Virus record (IMG/VR): IMGVR_UViG_3300036861_000835
Span: 1 to 21,295 of that record
DNA length: 21,295 bases
Source: a virus
Reading direction: 5' to 3' (one strand)
Shown here: positions 2,989 to 20,190 of the stretch, piece by piece
Position numbering within the stretch: the first letter of the stretch is position 1
How the letters are laid out: each line of letters begins with the position of its first letter
Translations under genes and position numbers: made by a program
The notes under the pieces: model-generated
Told to the model about the DNA's origin: nothing
The model's database searches: none
What the model saw: only the letters and a program-made list of their open reading frames with translations

Positions 2989-3234
2989 TTATGACAGTTC
3001 CTTTTCGTTCTCGGCCTCAGCCCGAGGCTGAGGCGTTCTCGACGGCGCCTCGGTGAGGGTCAGCACGTCCGCGTCTTTGTCGTATTTCCAGCTTCCGCCG
3101 AAGGGCATCACGGCGCCCTTGACCTTCAATCCCTCGACGCGCTTGTCTTCCGGCAGCGCCTTTGCCTCGTCCACGGTCAGCGGGCGGACACGCAGGTCCG
3201 CCCCTACATTCGCCCCTACGGTTTCTTCGTCCAT
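2989..3234 (-). CDS. Small protein with a repeat-encoded N-terminal segment
   Basis: An 81-residue charged protein. The ATG at 3234 is chosen because AAGGAG lies seven bases upstream; longer readings run into intergenic repeats. Residues 6-18 (VGANVGADLRVRP) are the translation of the palindromic repeat at 3181-3220, so the repeat has entered or extended the 5' end of the gene. The rest (PLTVDEAKALPEDKRVEGLK, then MPFGGSWKYDKDADVLTL) has no family I recognise. It lies between the tail terminator and tail tube genes and may be a small tail-assembly or accessory protein. Confidence 0.6.
   Translation of the reverse strand: MDEETVGANVGADLRVRPLTVDEAKALPEDKRVEGLKVKGAVMPFGGSWKYDKDADVLTLTEAPSRTPQPRAEAENEKELS
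3181..3220. repeat. Palindromic repeat, GGGCGGAC family (copy 1, inside a gene)
   Basis: A 27-base core here (3181-3207) is identical to 12373-12399. It is an interrupted palindrome of the form GGGCGGACnnnnnnGTCCGCCC and is followed by an extra CGCCCCTAC unit. In this copy the element is translated as part of the small protein at 2989-3234; the other copy is intergenic. Confidence 0.8.
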
Positions 3235-8771: not shown

Positions 8772-8783
8772 CTACTTTCTTCC

Positions 8784-8889
8784 CTTGGCGCCCTTTGCGC
8801 CTTTGCGCGAGATGCCCTCTCCCCCGCCCTCTCCCGCTAGCGGGAGAGGGAAGGGGTGAGGGTCGCGCCAAGCCGCCAAGCTCGCAAAG
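8784..8889. repeat. Composite inverted repeat: CTTGGCG/CGCCAAG arms around a 24-bp palindrome
   Basis: The left arm (8784-8812, CTTGGCGCCCTTTGCGCCTT type) and right arm (8863-8889, CGCGCCAAGCCGCCAAG then CTCGCAAAG) match the elements at 16981-17072 and 17688-17764. Between them lies a different repeat with a perfect 24-bp palindrome at 8827-8850 (half site CCCTCTCCCGCT). One repeat family appears to have inserted into the loop of another. The element fills the gap between the decoration and connector genes. Confidence 0.75.
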
Positions 8890-8891
8890 TT

Positions 8892-9689
8892 TCAGTCCTC
8901 GGTCTCGATGTACTCGATCAACACGACGCTGGCCGGCGCGTTGGCCGTGCCGTTCGCGGTAACGGCGATAGTTACGTTGGCATTGGCCGCCACGCTCGGG
9001 TTCGTGATCGTGCCCATGTCATTCACCGACCCGGCGGCCAGGGCCGTCTGTACGGCCAATGTGGCGACGGCGCCGACGGCGGCGTTCGACACCACGACCG
9101 TCGCGTCGTTGGCCGGCGCGGCGGCGACCCATGCGGCCTGCGGGACATGATACGCCTTGACGATCGTGGCCGGCGTCTGCGGCTTCCAGAGGACGTAGCC
9201 GGCGGCGATGTCGGCGTCGGCGGCGCCCGGATCGGGCACGTGCACGGCGATCGATTTCACGCGGCGCGCGCGCCCCACGTCGATCACGTATTGCGTCGCC
9301 GAGATAGCCCGGCCGACGTTTTGCGAGTAGGCGGTCGGCTGCGTCTGCGTGGTGGCGCCGGCGGTCGTGTGCAGAAAAACGTAGCCGCCCTTGGTGAGCG
9401 AGCTGAGCCCGCCGACCTGGCCGCGCGTTACCACCGGGACGTTGGCGCCCGACGACGCCTTGGCGCCGGCCACGCCGGCCGCAGGGCGGAGCGTCGAGTC
9501 GTCGGCGTCGGCCTTGTAGCACTTGCCGTCCGACGCTTTGATCGCGAGCACGTCGCCCTCGACGACGGCCTCGCCCGTGACGCAGCCGAAGCGCGCGTCG
9601 ACCCGCTCGACTCGGGCGGCCAGCGCGGCCGAGCTGATAAAGAGCAGCGCTAGCAGCGCCGCCCAGATGGTGAAAAATTTATTTTTCAT
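8892..9689 (-). CDS. Capsid decoration (cement-like) protein with an N-terminal signal peptide
   Basis: A 265-residue protein with GAAGGGAAAA before the ATG. Residues 1-25 (MKNKFFTIWAALLALLFISS, then AALAA) are a textbook Sec signal peptide. The next 120 residues (VVEGDVLAIKASDGKCYKAD, VTRGQVGGLSSLTKGGYVFL, VGRAISATQYVIDVG) follow the DUF2190-like cement pattern of small beta-barrel proteins on capsid surfaces. The C-terminal 120 residues form another beta-rich domain ending SVVLIEYIETED. It directly follows the capsid gene. No alternative start codon exists that would remove the leader and keep the domain, so the leader is part of the gene. Confidence 0.72.
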   Translation of the reverse strand: MKNKFFTIWAALLALLFISSAALAARVERVDARFGCVTGEAVVEGDVLAIKASDGKCYKADADDSTLRPAAGVAGAKASSGANVPVVTRGQVGGLSSLTKGGYVFLHTTAGATTQTQPTAYSQNVGRAISATQYVIDVGRARRVKSIAVHVPDPGAADADIAAGYVLWKPQTPATIVKAYHVPQAAWVAAAPANDATVVVSNAAVGAVATLAVQTALAAGSVNDMGTITNPSVAANANVTIAVTANGTANAPASVVLIEYIETED

Positions 9690-12372: not shown

Positions 12373-12400
12373 CGGGCGGACACGCAGGTCCGCCCCTACG
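12373..12400. repeat. Palindromic repeat, GGGCGGAC family (copy 2, intergenic)
   Basis: Its first 27 bases are identical to 3181-3207. It lies two bases past the MuF stop codon (12402-12404) in transcription order and ends before the A-rich leader of the next gene. Being palindromic, it could fold as a short hairpin in the transcript. Confidence 0.78.
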
Positions 12401-12401
12401 T

Positions 12402-14078
12402 TCACGCTGCCAACTTTTGCAGATTCCAGTCCGACTTGTACGGGATCGACTGACAGCCGCAGTTGGAAGTTAAAATATTTTCTGCTATTAAAAGGCCACT
12501 CGTGGATTCGAGATCGTAGACATGCCCGAGGTAATAAAAATCCCGGACCTCGACCACGTCGTCGAGCGCTATCGCTCCGGGGCATCGATCAAGCAGCTCG
12601 CTGGCGAGCTCGGCGTTGCGCGCGGCACTCTCACTAAACGGCTCCGCGATCGCGAGATTCCCGTCAGAGATATTGCCGCAGCCGGACGTGTCGTATGGTC
12701 GGAACTCAAGCGCGACCGGAGAGCGGTCGAAGCGCAGTGCGGATCCGCCTGGGGCTCCTGTCGGGGATCCACCGTATCGGCGGCGCGGATGCAGGCTCGG
12801 GCCGAAGCTCGTGAGATCGCGCTGTTTCACCCCGGCTACTTTGAGGACGAAATCGACGCCGAGCTGCAAGAGGCCGGCTGCTTCACCCGCCGGATGTACC
12901 CGGTCGGACCGTACAGCGTGAATCTCGCCTTTCATGTTGACCGCGTCGCCGTGGAAGTTTCCGCCAACTTTAACTACCGGCACCGTAAGGCTCTCGACCG
13001 CGACCGCGTCGAATACATTCTCGATCAGCGATGGGCGGTCCTGTTTATTTTTCATTCCAAAAACAAAGCCGTCCTTCCGCACCGCATGACTGAGGAGGCG
13101 ATCGCCTTTCTGGAGGCGGTGCGCGAAGATCAATCCATGCTCGGTCATTACGGGATGGTTTGGAGTGACGGCGAGCTTGTAGCCTCGGCGGCTCGTGATC
13201 TCCCGCGCCGGCCCCGCGTAGAAGGCTTTTGATCCGCCGATAAATTCCCCGCTAACTTCCGCTCCGGGCAAAAAGCAGTTGACGGTATTGCACGCGCTCC
13301 CGTTCGGATCGCGCGGAAACATGAGCTGCTCGGCCGGGCACGTGCGCGACGCCGGCAGATCGAACGGCTCGTCGATCTCGCGCACCTGGCCGTTGATCGC
13401 GCGGTGATTCAAGCGTGAGACGCCCGACCATAGCCACTGCTTCTTGAGGCCGGCGACGACCTTGGCCGCCTCTTCCTGGCGCGCCTGGGTCGCGAGCGAG
13501 AGCACGCGCCCGGTCTCGGTCCGCGTGATAATCTCCGCCCGGTTGGCGATTGTCCCGAACGTCGCCGGGTCGTCGAGCGTCGCCTCGATTTCCTTCAGCG
13601 CCTCGAACGGCGTCTTGGCGCCGTTCGCCGCAAGCAGAATCTCGCGCTTGATTTCTTCCCGCGCGTCGAGGCTGAGGCGCGTAATCAGGTCGACGGTCGC
13701 GACGCGCGACGCCTGCAAGACGGAGAGCGACGGCTCGGGAAACCGCACGTCGATGCCGGCGGCGCGGAGCGGATCGTCCACCTTGTCGATGCCGATCTCG
13801 AAGCCGCGGCGGACGAGCTCGCGCGAGTCGATGGAATATTTTTGCGCCCAGTCGTCGGCGAGCCGGTCGACGGACATTAAAAGTTTCGGCAGGCGCATGG
13901 CGTCGAAGCCCTCGGCCTTGATGATTTGAGCGAGGATCTCCTGCCGCCAGGCGGCGAGGGAATCCAGCGCGGCGCGCTGCGCGGCTTTGTCCAGCGCGGC
14001 GATCCGCGCCATGATCGCGCGCGTCGCGGCGAGCGGGTCTTCAGCGGCCTCGCGGGCTATGTGCAAAAAAGGGCTCAT
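12402..14078 (-). CDS. MuF-type minor head protein interrupted by an intein
   Basis: The 558-residue precursor starts at an ATG overlapping the portal stop (ATGA). The N-extein (267 residues) has helices at residues 1-180 and then the MuF domain: RAEIITRTETGRV, KKQWLWSGVSRLNHRAINGQ, and LMFPRDPNGSACNTVN. The C-extein is only 19 residues, starting CGCQSIPYKSDW. Joining NTVN to CGC rebuilds the conserved asparagine-cysteine-x-cysteine end of MuF domains, giving a 286-residue mature protein. MuF proteins attach near the portal inside the head. The gene follows the portal gene, as in Mu-like and SPP1-like phages. Without splicing the conserved end would be split, so splicing is probably needed for function. 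Confidence 0.88.
   Translation of the reverse strand: MSPFLHIAREAAEDPLAATRAIMARIAALDKAAQRAALDSLAAWRQEILAQIIKAEGFDAMRLPKLLMSVDRLADDWAQKYSIDSRELVRRGFEIGIDKVDDPLRAAGIDVRFPEPSLSVLQASRVATVDLITRLSLDAREEIKREILLAANGAKTPFEALKEIEATLDDPATFGTIANRAEIITRTETGRVLSLATQARQEEAAKVVAGLKKQWLWSGVSRLNHRAINGQVREIDEPFDLPASRTCPAEQLMFPRDPNGSACNTVNCFLPGAEVSGEFIGGSKAFYAGPAREITSRRGYKLAVTPNHPVMTEHGLIFAHRLQKGDRLLSHAVRKDGFVFGMKNKQDRPSLIENVFDAVAVESLTVPVVKVGGNFHGDAVNMKGEIHAVRSDRVHPAGEAAGLLQLGVDFVLKVAGVKQRDLTSFGPSLHPRRRYGGSPTGAPGGSALRFDRSPVALEFRPYDTSGCGNISDGNLAIAEPFSESAARNAELASELLDRCPGAIALDDVVEVRDFYYLGHVYDLESTSGLLIAENILTSNCGCQSIPYKSDWNLQKLAA
12463..12491 (+). promoter_or_regulatory. Candidate sigma-70-like promoter for the antisense gene
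   Basis: TTGGAA (12463-12468) and TATTAA (12486-12491) are separated by exactly 17 bases, each matching four of six consensus bases. They lie in an AT-rich island that is unusual in this GC-rich window and coincides with the codons of the last residues of the intein. Transcription would begin near 12498, about 24 bases before the ATG at 12522. No strong ribosome site is visible. This is a pattern match only. Confidence 0.4.
12522..13232 (+). CDS. Antisense HTH plus Vsr-like nuclease, candidate homing endonuclease nested in the intein
   Basis: A 236-residue protein on the opposite strand, wholly within the intein. Residues about 11-50 form a helix-turn-helix (VVERYRSGASIKQLAGELG, then ARGTLTKRLRDREIPVRD), as used for DNA contact. 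Residues about 94-200 match the Vsr/EDxHD-like PD-(D/E)XK pattern: an acidic helix (FEDEIDAELQEAG), VGPYSVNLAFHVD, then VAVEVSANFNYRHR (E145, H154) and a helix with RDRVEYILDQRWAVLFIF. The position usually occupied by Asp in 'xVDxA' is Asn134, so activity is uncertain. The frame is codon-on-codon antisense, where long open frames are common by chance; the call rests on the two domains, not on length. Confidence 0.72.
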   Translation: MPEVIKIPDLDHVVERYRSGASIKQLAGELGVARGTLTKRLRDREIPVRDIAAAGRVVWSELKRDRRAVEAQCGSAWGSCRGSTVSAARMQARAEAREIALFHPGYFEDEIDAELQEAGCFTRRMYPVGPYSVNLAFHVDRVAVEVSANFNYRHRKALDRDRVEYILDQRWAVLFIFHSKNKAVLPHRMTEEAIAFLEAVREDQSMLGHYGMVWSDGELVASAARDLPRRPRVEGF

Positions 14079-16980: not shown

Positions 16981-17072
16981 CTTGGCGCCCTTTGCCTTGG
17001 CGTGCTTGGCGGCTTGGCGCGAGACAATCCGCTCCGAAGAGTTTCTCCCGCAAAGGCGCAAAGTCCGCAAAG
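16981..17072. repeat. Inverted repeat of the CTTGGCG/GCAAAG family (copy 2)
   Basis: The left part (CTTGGCGCCCTTTGCCTTGG and repeats of CTTGGCG) and right part (CGCAAAGGCGCAAAGTCCGC) flank GAGACAATCCGCTC. The complement of that centre (GGATTGTCTCGCGCCAAG) recurs in the copy at 17688-17764. It fills the gap between the gp27-like and terminase genes and runs up to the terminase ribosome site. Confidence 0.75.
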
Positions 17073-17077
17073 CTTCA

Positions 17078-17668
17078 TCATTTGCTGAGACCTAAAATCT
17101 GGTCGACCATCGCGACGACCTTCTCCGGTTTGGCGCCAGCCGCGACCGCGCTCTTCACTCTCTCCGCGCTCGCCTTCACCTTTTCCAAAGCTCGTTTTTT
17201 CAGCTCCAAACTTTCCTCCAGCACCTTGACCTTCTTCCCGTCGTTGGCGGTCCGCTCGGTCAAAATTTTGTTCCGCTCCTTCTGGACGCCGAGACGGCCC
17301 TCGGCCAGGACCAGGTCATAGAGCGCGAGAGGATCTTGATTCTGAGCCGCCGCCATGCCGTTGAACAAAAGAGTCTTAAGCATCTCGCTCGTGACTTCAT
17401 CGATCGGCTTTCCCTTCGCGCCCTCGAGCGAGTCCTTGACCATCGCAAAAAGCCGCTCGGTCTCGGCCAGCGTCCGCCGGACCGGGAACCAGCGGTTGGC
17501 GTGATAGCGCTGCAAGGAGCTGACGGGGAGCTTTTCCCCTGTCGCTTTGAGAAGCGCGGCGCAAACTTTTTCATAGGTCTCGTTGGCGCTAAGCCCGTCA
17601 TCGACGATCTTCTTCCCCGCCAACGAAAGTTTTTCGGCCGCGTAGTGTCGCTTCCGCTCAGCGGCCAC
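17078..17668 (-). CDS. gp27-like protein (DUF3486 type), probable small terminase
   Basis: A 196-residue helical protein. The GTG at 17668 is chosen because GGAG lies seven bases upstream; the overlapping ATG is in another frame. It has an N-terminal HTH-like part (KKIVDDGLSANETYEKVCAA, then PVSSLQRYHANRWF), followed by long coiled-coil helices (VLEESLELKKRALEKVKASA). This matches the DUF3486 / Mu gp27 pattern, thought to act with the large terminase in DNA recognition. It directly precedes the terminase gene, as in Mu-like phages. Confidence 0.72.
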   Translation of the reverse strand: MAAERKRHYAAEKLSLAGKKIVDDGLSANETYEKVCAALLKATGEKLPVSSLQRYHANRWFPVRRTLAETERLFAMVKDSLEGAKGKPIDEVTSEMLKTLLFNGMAAAQNQDPLALYDLVLAEGRLGVQKERNKILTERTANDGKKVKVLEESLELKKRALEKVKASAERVKSAVAAGAKPEKVVAMVDQILGLSK

Positions 17669-17687
17669 ATCCCCACTCCGTTTTCAC

Positions 17688-17764
17688 CTTGGCGCCCTTT
17701 GTGCCTTTGCGCGAAAAAAGATTCGGGCCGGATTGTCTCGCGCCAAGACGCCAAGCTCGCAAAG
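17688..17764. repeat. Inverted repeat of the CTTGGCG/CGCAAAG family (copy 3)
   Basis: Left arm CTTGGCGCCCTTTGTGCCTT and right arm CGCGCCAAGACGCCAAGCTC plus GCAAAG are imperfect inverted repeats around AAAAAAGATTCGGGCCGGAT. The centre and right arm match the complement of 16981-17072. It fills the gap between the winged-helix and gp27-like genes. Confidence 0.78.
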
Positions 17765-17770
17765 TTAAAA

Positions 17771-18085
17771 TCATCGGATGCCTTTGATAATTTCGTCGCC
17801 CTCTAGAACCCGGACGCCCTTGGCCGTGATTCTGTATTTGTAGACGTAGGGCGGCGTCTTCCCGAGCTTCACCATGTCGATGCAGCCGATCTCGTTGTCG
17901 AAGAGATAAATGCAGTAGTCCTTCAGATCCTCGGTCGACAGGTCGTAGCCCTGCACGGACATCAGCTCCTGGAGCATCAAGTGGTTGAGATAGCCGCCGC
18001 TCTCGGTCAGCGCGGCCTTCCGCGCCTCGTGGAGGATCTCTAGGATCATCCGGCGGATCTCTCTACTGAGATATTTTTTGTCCAT
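17771..18085 (-). CDS. Winged-helix phage protein (Mu gp26-like, VpaChn25_0724 type)
   Basis: A 104-residue protein whose start lies inside the last 23 bases of the upstream gene. It has the layout of a winged helix: REIRRMILEILHEARKA, a recognition-like pair of helices (LMLQELMSVQGYDLSTEDLK), and a wing with a basic strand (YVYKYRITAKGVRVLEGDE). This is the pattern of the small protein between gp25 and gp27 in Mu-like phages, whose exact role is unknown. It may bind DNA. Context supports the match. Confidence 0.7.
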   Translation of the reverse strand: MDKKYLSREIRRMILEILHEARKAALTESGGYLNHLMLQELMSVQGYDLSTEDLKDYCIYLFDNEIGCIDMVKLGKTPPYVYKYRITAKGVRVLEGDEIIKGIR

Positions 18086-19926: not shown

Positions 19927-20160
19927 TTACACCTCGTGATTGCCAGAATTGCGGACCGTGACGATCGGCCTGCCTTGGACGCGCTTGAGCGAGACGATCA
20001 GCATCGTCGTCGTGTGATTTTGCGACCGGCATTGCTCGCAGCGGCCGGCGGCGATCGCGCCGGGCGCGCCGCACTCCAGGCAGACGCGAATGCGCGCGAA
20101 GCTCTCGAAGCCGCGCTCCTCGCTCCCGATCGTCGTGACCGTCGCGTTGCTGATTTCCAT
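19927..20160 (-). CDS. Small zinc-ribbon protein
   Basis: A 77-residue protein. The ATG at 20160 is used because upstream sequence is a chromosomal-type repeat; AAGGACGCAAAGGT precedes it. It carries two CxxC knuckles (VCLECGAPG at 27-30, RCEQCRSQ at 41-44), typical of a treble-clef or zinc ribbon, and then a beta-like end (TTMLIVSLKRVQGRPIVTVR). Two-knuckle proteins of this size can bind nucleic acid or proteins. It lies between the candidate holin and endolysin genes. Function unknown. Confidence 0.62.
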   Translation of the reverse strand: MEISNATVTTIGSEERGFESFARIRVCLECGAPGAIAAGRCEQCRSQNHTTTMLIVSLKRVQGRPIVTVRNSGNHEV

Positions 20161-20162
20161 TA

Positions 20163-20190
20163 CCTTTGCGTCCTTTGCGCTTTGGCGCGA
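20163..20190. repeat. Half copy of the CTTGGCG/GCAAAG repeat family
   Basis: CCTTTGCGTCCTTTGCGCTT and GGCGCGAAAACG match one arm of the elements at 16981, 17688 and 8784. It lies in the gap upstream of the zinc-ribbon gene and supplies its purine-rich leader on the minus strand. Confidence 0.6.

Follow-up and report, generated by a model that had tools for sequence, protein, structure and literature searches.

The window analysed here, a 21,295-nucleotide stretch of viral DNA, carries on its minus strand an intein-interrupted, MuF-like gene for phage head morphogenesis, and on its plus strand, opposite this intein, an open reading frame of 236 codons. A preliminary description had taken this frame to be a homing endonuclease gene lying antisense within the intein. 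The locus therefore raises the question of whether the antisense frame encodes a real protein at all and, if so, whether that protein is the enzyme that mobilizes the intein.

The interrupted gene occupies positions 12402–14078 (minus strand), with its N- and C-exteins at 13278–14078 and 12402–12461, respectively. The N-extein matched the Pfam family Phage_Mu_F (E 1.3e-5) and was assigned to head morphogenesis by PHROG. The intein (12462–13277, minus strand) comprises 272 residues, running from C1 to N272 before a +1 Cys, and consists of a Hint splicing domain whose central part is disordered. Splicing block B (TPNHP, identified by sequence) lies at 13152–13166, block F (GHVYDLE) at 12507–12527, and block G (ENILTSN, immediately before the +1 Cys) at 12462–12482, all on the minus strand. 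Every block named in the preliminary description (C1, TPNHP, VYDLE and the SN preceding the +1 Cys) was present, and the coordinates given there for the intein and the antisense frame were exact. The window intein has the features of a class 1 Hint intein, possessing C1, a block B TxxH (TPNHP), a C-terminal Asn (N272), and a +1 Cys; C1 and N272 were invariant across 50 cluster representatives. Its penultimate residue is Ser, not His. The profile of the sense intein family matched the inteins MJ0781, RadA, and RecA (E 1e-10), and a Foldseek search with the AF2 model of the sense intein listed the inteins TliVMA, RecA, and GyrA.

The sense strand had been said to lack LAGLIDADG and HNH motifs, and indeed Pfam found Phage_Mu_F and Intein_splicing only; the middle of the sense intein matched no nuclease family, and the nuclease is antisense. 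In the AF2 model, confidence was high at residues 1–66 and 221–272 (pLDDT 92–98), fair at 84–126 (which includes an FHGD motif), and below 50, indicating disorder, within 127–216. This last segment is the place where selection acts on the antisense strand only, as described below, and the middle of the sense intein appears to be mostly a tolerated, disordered read-through linker. Residues 84–126 (window 12900–13028) form a conserved extension of the Hint domain, containing a helix and strands as well as the near-invariant FHGD.

The putative antisense homing-endonuclease gene runs from ATG to TGA at 12522–13232 (plus strand), opposite sense residues 16–252, its codons in exact register with those of the sense frame. 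When the window protein was searched as a single sequence, Pfam returned HTH_7 (E 1e-4) and weak matches to MTES_1575/DUF559, and a PDB search returned no nuclease; a family profile was needed, which matched 3hrl (E 5e-7), the homing endonuclease I-Bth0305I (3r3p, E 5e-6), and Vsr (1cw0, E 0.01). The AF2 model of the antisense protein had a mean pLDDT of 91.8, a confidence that partly reflects an alignment gathered through that same protein (the AF2 alignments excluded rows from the phage collection). Using VIA-align, the best structural match of this model was the catalytic domain of I-Bth0305I (3r3p; Z 9.5 over residues 106–202, 91 residues at 2.2 Å), followed by the putative endonuclease 3hrl (Z 9.4) and Vsr (1vsr, Z 9.1), while residues 2–49 matched the helix-turn-helix (HTH) of Hin recombinase (Z 6.6). 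Foldseek also ranked Vsr and I-Bth0305I high (prob 0.98 and 0.94, E about 0.09), although by itself it gave no match at E < 0.001 and the match was supplied by VIA-align and the profile search. The HTH DNA-binding domain spans 12546–12668 (plus strand) and was recognized as Pfam HTH_7/23/58 across members, which carry one or two copies; the Vsr/EDxHD-like nuclease domain, delimited by VIA-align and the profile E-values, spans 12828–13127 (plus strand). Thus, when both translations were checked for fold, the sense strand yielded Hint/intein and the antisense strand Vsr/I-Bth0305I, and the proposed combination of an N-terminal HTH with a Vsr/EDxHD-like core was borne out by HTH_7, the family profile, and VIA-align.

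Across cluster representatives the acids of the predicted active site were nearly invariant (E108 in 51 of 53, D134 in 52 of 53, and E145 in all 53), and a check for the exact EDxHD motif found a His after the VAVE strand (GGxWH) in many clusters, not all. For the window itself the nuclease assignment held only in part: the family fold stood, but the conserved Asp did not. Because codon 134 of the window is AAT (Asn; 12921–12923, plus strand) where 52 of the 53 representatives have Asp, its own nuclease copy may be inactive. Endonucleases decay after fixation in the homing cycle, and in keeping with such decay the window copy may have been inactivated recently. In phage REQ3 (L289), the antisense reading frame is shortened and has lost the HTH while the sense intein remains, possibly a stage of decay.

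How surprising is an open frame opposite a GC-rich gene? The codons whose complements are stops (TTA, CTA, and TCA) make up 0.66% of sense codons in the window's other genes, so that 236 in-register codons would stay open with a probability of 0.21. Taken alone, the open antisense frame of this GC-rich window is unremarkable, and a 487-aa antisense frame lies opposite its terminase gene. The case therefore depends on relatives. In their overlaps, TTA, CTA, and TCA occurred 0 times in the sense frame as against 306 expected from the usage of the same genes, and, counted from the antisense view, stop-complement codons occurred 0 times as against 241 expected. That all frames should be open over 96 clusters had, under same-gene codon usage, a log10 P of about −179, a figure that serves as an illustration and not as a P value, as the clusters are related and many were picked through an antisense match. 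In an AT-rich Helicobacter prophage (GC 36%), the open antisense frame had a P of 1e-7 by itself.

We found these relatives in several ways. A tblastn search with the antisense protein returned 75 phage records, and three of its relatives used as queries returned about 120–130 records each, spanning phages of Pseudomonas, Cronobacter, Vibrio, Klebsiella, Acinetobacter, Salmonella, Escherichia, Gordonia, Rhodococcus, and Mycobacterium as well as prophages of Haemophilus and Helicobacter; in the regions that we opened, the nuclease was antisense, in register, and within an intein-bearing MuF/head gene. All 80 loci fetched from an IMG/VR search with the family alignment showed the same arrangement. 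Because this family query contained the shadow of block B, we ran a second search restricted to the nuclease core, which added 67 viral loci and 13 bacterial contigs (including Micromonospora, Chitinophaga, Scytonema, and Arcobacter), all of them in register and opposite an open sense frame, and nearly all with recognizable intein blocks. No free-standing relative of the nuclease appeared among the best 80 viral and 13 genome matches of this core-only profile. An IMG/VR search with the window sequence only, which reaches close relatives only, gave no match, nor did a search of plasmid DNA. Our main statistics refer to 97 clusters at 70% identity, and some loci from different searches share contigs.

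The reciprocal search, starting from the sense splicing domain (residues 1–75 only), gave at least 600 matches in IMG/VR, and all 80 loci fetched from it carried the antisense nuclease; no intein of the family without the antisense gene was found among these 80. Two apparent exceptions (L220 and L231) proved to be frame artefacts at contig ends. The antisense frame was open in every homologue examined, and in none of the 80 loci chosen from the sense side did antisense stops accompany an intact sense intein. Antisense-nuclease inteins were also seen at other MuF sites in phage KMB36 (L290; T/C...N/CRARDG, slashes marking the junctions) and phage Sejanus (L291; WV/C...HN/CTIDGKTRP), indicating that the family invaded MuF more than once. 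Some intein-bearing Jerseyviruses have an endonuclease VII-like gene (so annotated in one phage) two genes from MuF (L008 1609–2148 and L185 596–1135).

With the two frames in register, the antisense wobble position coincides with sense position 1 and the first antisense position with sense position 3, and the ratio of substitutions at sense positions 1 and 3 reports which strand is selected. For nine pairs of relatives taken from distinct clusters, this ratio was 0.42 in the N-extein and 0.35 in intein residues 1–30, rose to 1.18 around block B, 2.0 at residues 70–104, 1.14 at FHGD, and 2.08 from residue 114 to block F, and returned to 0.26 in blocks F–G and 0.42 in the C-extein. The pattern indicates that coding passes from the sense to the antisense strand at one end of the antisense frame and returns at the other, with two stretches serving both. 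In a single pair (L003 and L028), substitutions at the three codon positions numbered 59/9/20 in the overlap vs 41/24/99 in the extein, and the pooled contrast between middle and extein gave a chi2 of 197 (p 1e-44). The concentration of substitutions at the antisense wobble position in the overlap attests to purifying selection on the antisense protein beyond any forced by the sense frame, as the preliminary description had required.

One of the doubly used stretches is a motif at 12945–12956 (minus strand), where sense F-H-G-D (residues 108–111) and antisense V-A-V-E (residues 142–145) are exact complements. E145 of the antisense motif is the invariant nuclease acid, and 49 of the 50 clusters have G at the wobble position of antisense Val144 (10.5 expected), an excess implying that the sense His of FHGD is selected too. 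The other is the TPNHP stretch of block B, in which the ratio of 1.18 and the wobble test show constraint on both strands; its complement encodes a conserved motif of the antisense tail (G-x-Y-x-V-I/W-x-G/S-D/N-G).

The splicing blocks at the other end of the intein carry codon choices of a kind that expression of the antisense gene would need. The antisense start codon is the complement of the block F His codon (GHVYDL; CAT on the sense strand, ATG on the antisense strand of the window), and it reads ATG at 58 of 87 loci, GTG at 13, and TTG at 3. This His was encoded as CAT in 65 of 84 cases (30.3 expected from the genes' own codon usage), and the Leu following it, within the codons that form the family's antisense Shine-Dalgarno region, as CTC in 78 of 89 (25.5 expected). 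A Shine-Dalgarno-like tetramer preceded the antisense start in 68 of 84 cases, compared to 21.7 in synonymous resampling; in the window this signal is weak, consisting of GAG only (12510–12512). Block G holds a −10-like box, which in the window is TAAAAT (12471–12476, plus strand), 51 bases before the antisense ATG. Across the family a TATAAT-like hexamer occurred in block G mostly at this distance (z 17.6 vs resampling over the region), matches of at least five of six bases to TATAAT at −51/−54 were found in 59 of 97 clusters vs 16.8 by synonymous resampling, and an extended −10 was found in 23 of the 97 vs 3.1 expected. The candidate promoter rests on the −10 box, as any −35 element would fall in host-gene sequence. 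Taken together, the biases for the start codon, Shine-Dalgarno sequence, and −10 box in blocks F and G (z 9–18) point to a probable promoter, ribosome-binding site, and start codon inside the splicing blocks.

Evidence that the element moves came from alleles that lack it. A relative of the window (contig L191; 95.6% identical upstream and 85.6% downstream) has an intein-less MuF gene with an exact join at N/C, this allele being 92.6% identical in DNA sequence to the joined exteins of the window; two more distant relatives also lack the MuF intein. The extein flank at 13278–13307 (minus strand) differed from L191 at 9 of 30 positions, compared with about 4% across the remaining 1.5 kb (p 2.6e-6). 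Such excess divergence beside the insert is expected if the flank was co-converted from a donor, and this segment is likely a co-conversion tract. Among Jerseyviruses, empty alleles are found in SEW_9 and JD02, and excess divergence beside the insert was seen in three of four comparisons on the N side and four of four on the C side. Transfer between lineages was evident when the Salmonella Jerseyvirus BPS11Q3 was compared with the E. coli Kagunavirus Snoke: their N-exteins differed at 120 of 200 third positions, whereas the start of the intein differed at 1 of 30 third positions and its 183-codon middle at 27 bases. More generally, N-exteins were alignable (E<1e-5) in only 9% of pairs with homologous nucleases. 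Lateral transfer with co-conversion of the flanks, as expected of a homing element, was found, and it is evidence that the element moves, not that the antisense nuclease drives the movement.

We propose, with a probability of roughly 0.87, that this is a mobile intein with a homing endonuclease encoded on the intein's own opposite strand. Read in the direction of the host gene, the locus would produce a MuF precursor, and the Hint domain would excise itself from this precursor by splicing, such that the essential head protein keeps working. Read in the opposite direction, it would yield a nuclease with an HTH and a Vsr/EDxHD fold, expressed from a small block G promoter and a block F start signal. 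This enzyme would recognize and cut the empty MuF site (HPN/C or IN/C) of a resident or co-infecting phage; recombinational repair templated by the copy with the intein would then insert the whole element and co-convert its flanks. Both folds, two-strand selection, initiation signals, exact empty sites, lateral transfer, and co-conversion are supported computationally, and we infer splicing activity, cleavage, target specificity, and expression timing.

The simplest alternative is that the antisense frame is a shadow, left open in register by GC-rich sense coding, with sense homology mimicking antisense homology. This account suffices for the window seen alone, and it is correct for the antisense tail over block B, which is truly a shadow of TPNHP. 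However, it predicts neither the inverted substitution pattern in the overlap nor the retention of the arrangement in AT-rich phages such as that of Helicobacter, and it leaves the independent fold match of the antisense protein and the start, Shine-Dalgarno, and −10 biases without a cause. We rejected it on codon positions, synonymous resampling, and AT-rich genomes, the codon-position switch being what refutes it, and consider its chance of being right close to negligible. Of the readings that accept a real antisense protein, one assigns it a role other than homing, for example as an HTH-dependent repressor of the intein/MuF gene or as a nuclease that cuts rival phages and so excludes superinfection. 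The presence of the HTH, the status of cutting as a prediction, and the retention of the frame in a window copy that has lost the Asp are compatible with such a role, but almost every cluster conserves the nuclease residues, I-Bth0305I is the nearest homing enzyme of solved structure, and the element is mobile, with precise empty sites and co-conversion; we regard this role as unlikely.

It could also be argued that the element spreads by ordinary phage recombination, with the nuclease as a passenger and homing unneeded, as phages recombine freely and any recombination can yield divergent flanks beside an insert. Against this, the breakpoints closely match the intein ends in host genes that are saturated at third positions, exact empty alleles occur in two unrelated lineages, and selection maintains an intact nuclease, which together make a passenger very unlikely. 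Still less probable, in our estimation, is that the Hint domain of the sense strand acts by cleavage (autoprocessing) and not by splicing. Splicing is a prediction, and the penultimate Ser of the window, in place of His, might suit such a domain, but C1, block B, the C-terminal Asn, and the +1 Cys are all retained, and the C-extein continues the MuF frame in an arrangement that equals that of the empty allele exactly. The mobile intein with an opposite-strand endonuclease therefore remains our preferred reading. We consider it very probable, by a shade less than that reading itself, that these loci form a distinct and widespread class of mobile inteins that encode the splicing protein on one strand and the homing endonuclease, in register, on the other, with the signals for the latter in blocks F and G and with FHGD/VAVE doubly selected.

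In the open literature that we searched, we found no precedent for an antisense, opposite-strand, or hidden endonuclease in an intein, in agreement with the preliminary description, which knew of no such system; the parts are known, and the architecture was not found described. Some group I introns harbour an endonuclease gene in antisense orientation. The phage 'fractured genes' of Dassa (2009; cited in PMC3229294) reportedly pair Vsr-like endonucleases with split inteins, the gene lying between the intein halves and forming no antisense overlap with a contiguous intein. The Vsr mismatch endonuclease (PDB 1cw0/1vsr) shares the fold (Z about 9), but it is a repair enzyme that has no HTH and is not mobile. 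In phage T4, segD is antisense to its neighbours and not within an intein (PMC2988022). The top structural and profile match, I-Bth0305I, is a homing endonuclease of the EDxHD type from a group I intron in a phage (PDB 3r3p; PMC3943268) and likewise a multi-domain phage enzyme with separate DNA-binding parts, but it is encoded by an intron and not antisense in an intein, and the antisense nuclease differs in its one or more N-terminal HTHs.

Intein homing endonucleases have been described as in-frame domains (PMC3943268, PMC6801210). Full-length inteins such as PI-SceI and TliVMA resemble the present family in uniting a Hint domain and a homing endonuclease as one mobile unit; however, their enzyme is translated as an in-frame fusion with the intein (PMC3943268), whereas here it would be a separate protein of the complementary strand, one that also overlaps block B and has its own predicted start signals. 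The closest earlier case of a hidden gene is the mobile ShiLan element of a phage methylase (PMC11855218), where an HNH endonuclease likewise lies concealed in another frame of an open insertion. In that case the endonuclease is on the same strand and of the HNH type, and its authors detected no intein or splicing element (PMC11855218), whereas the antisense enzyme is on the opposite strand, has a Vsr-like fold, and lies inside an intein.

Antisense coding may uncouple the nuclease from virion-protein expression, which is late and abundant, and a separate enzyme would let the selfish element express it at another time or level. With one stretch of ~0.8–1 kb encoding two unrelated proteins, these loci would, if our reading is true, be extreme natural antisense overlapping genes. 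Long antisense overlaps in which both products have recognizable folds and selection on each strand is measurable codon by codon are rare, and with this intein family the long-argued question of antisense coding becomes directly testable. Given the size of the family, with its hundreds of IMG/VR splicing-domain matches, annotated phage genomes should contain hundreds of unannotated nucleases, a predicted new source of site-specific DNA cutters.

Elsewhere in the window we observed intergenic repeat elements of 39–82 nt, some of them inverted, at 8772–8902, 16984–17085, 17676–17777, and 20152–20190, as well as at 1106–1136 and 2957–2987; several repeat copies are unusual for a phage genome of the window's size. 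In addition, a palindromic 31-nt repeat, CGGGCGGACACGCAGGTCCGCCCCTAC, occurs just after the MuF stop codon (12373–12403) and again 9 kb away (3181–3211). The same repeat is found at the same place in the intein-less relative L191 (1594–1624), and it could be a terminator.
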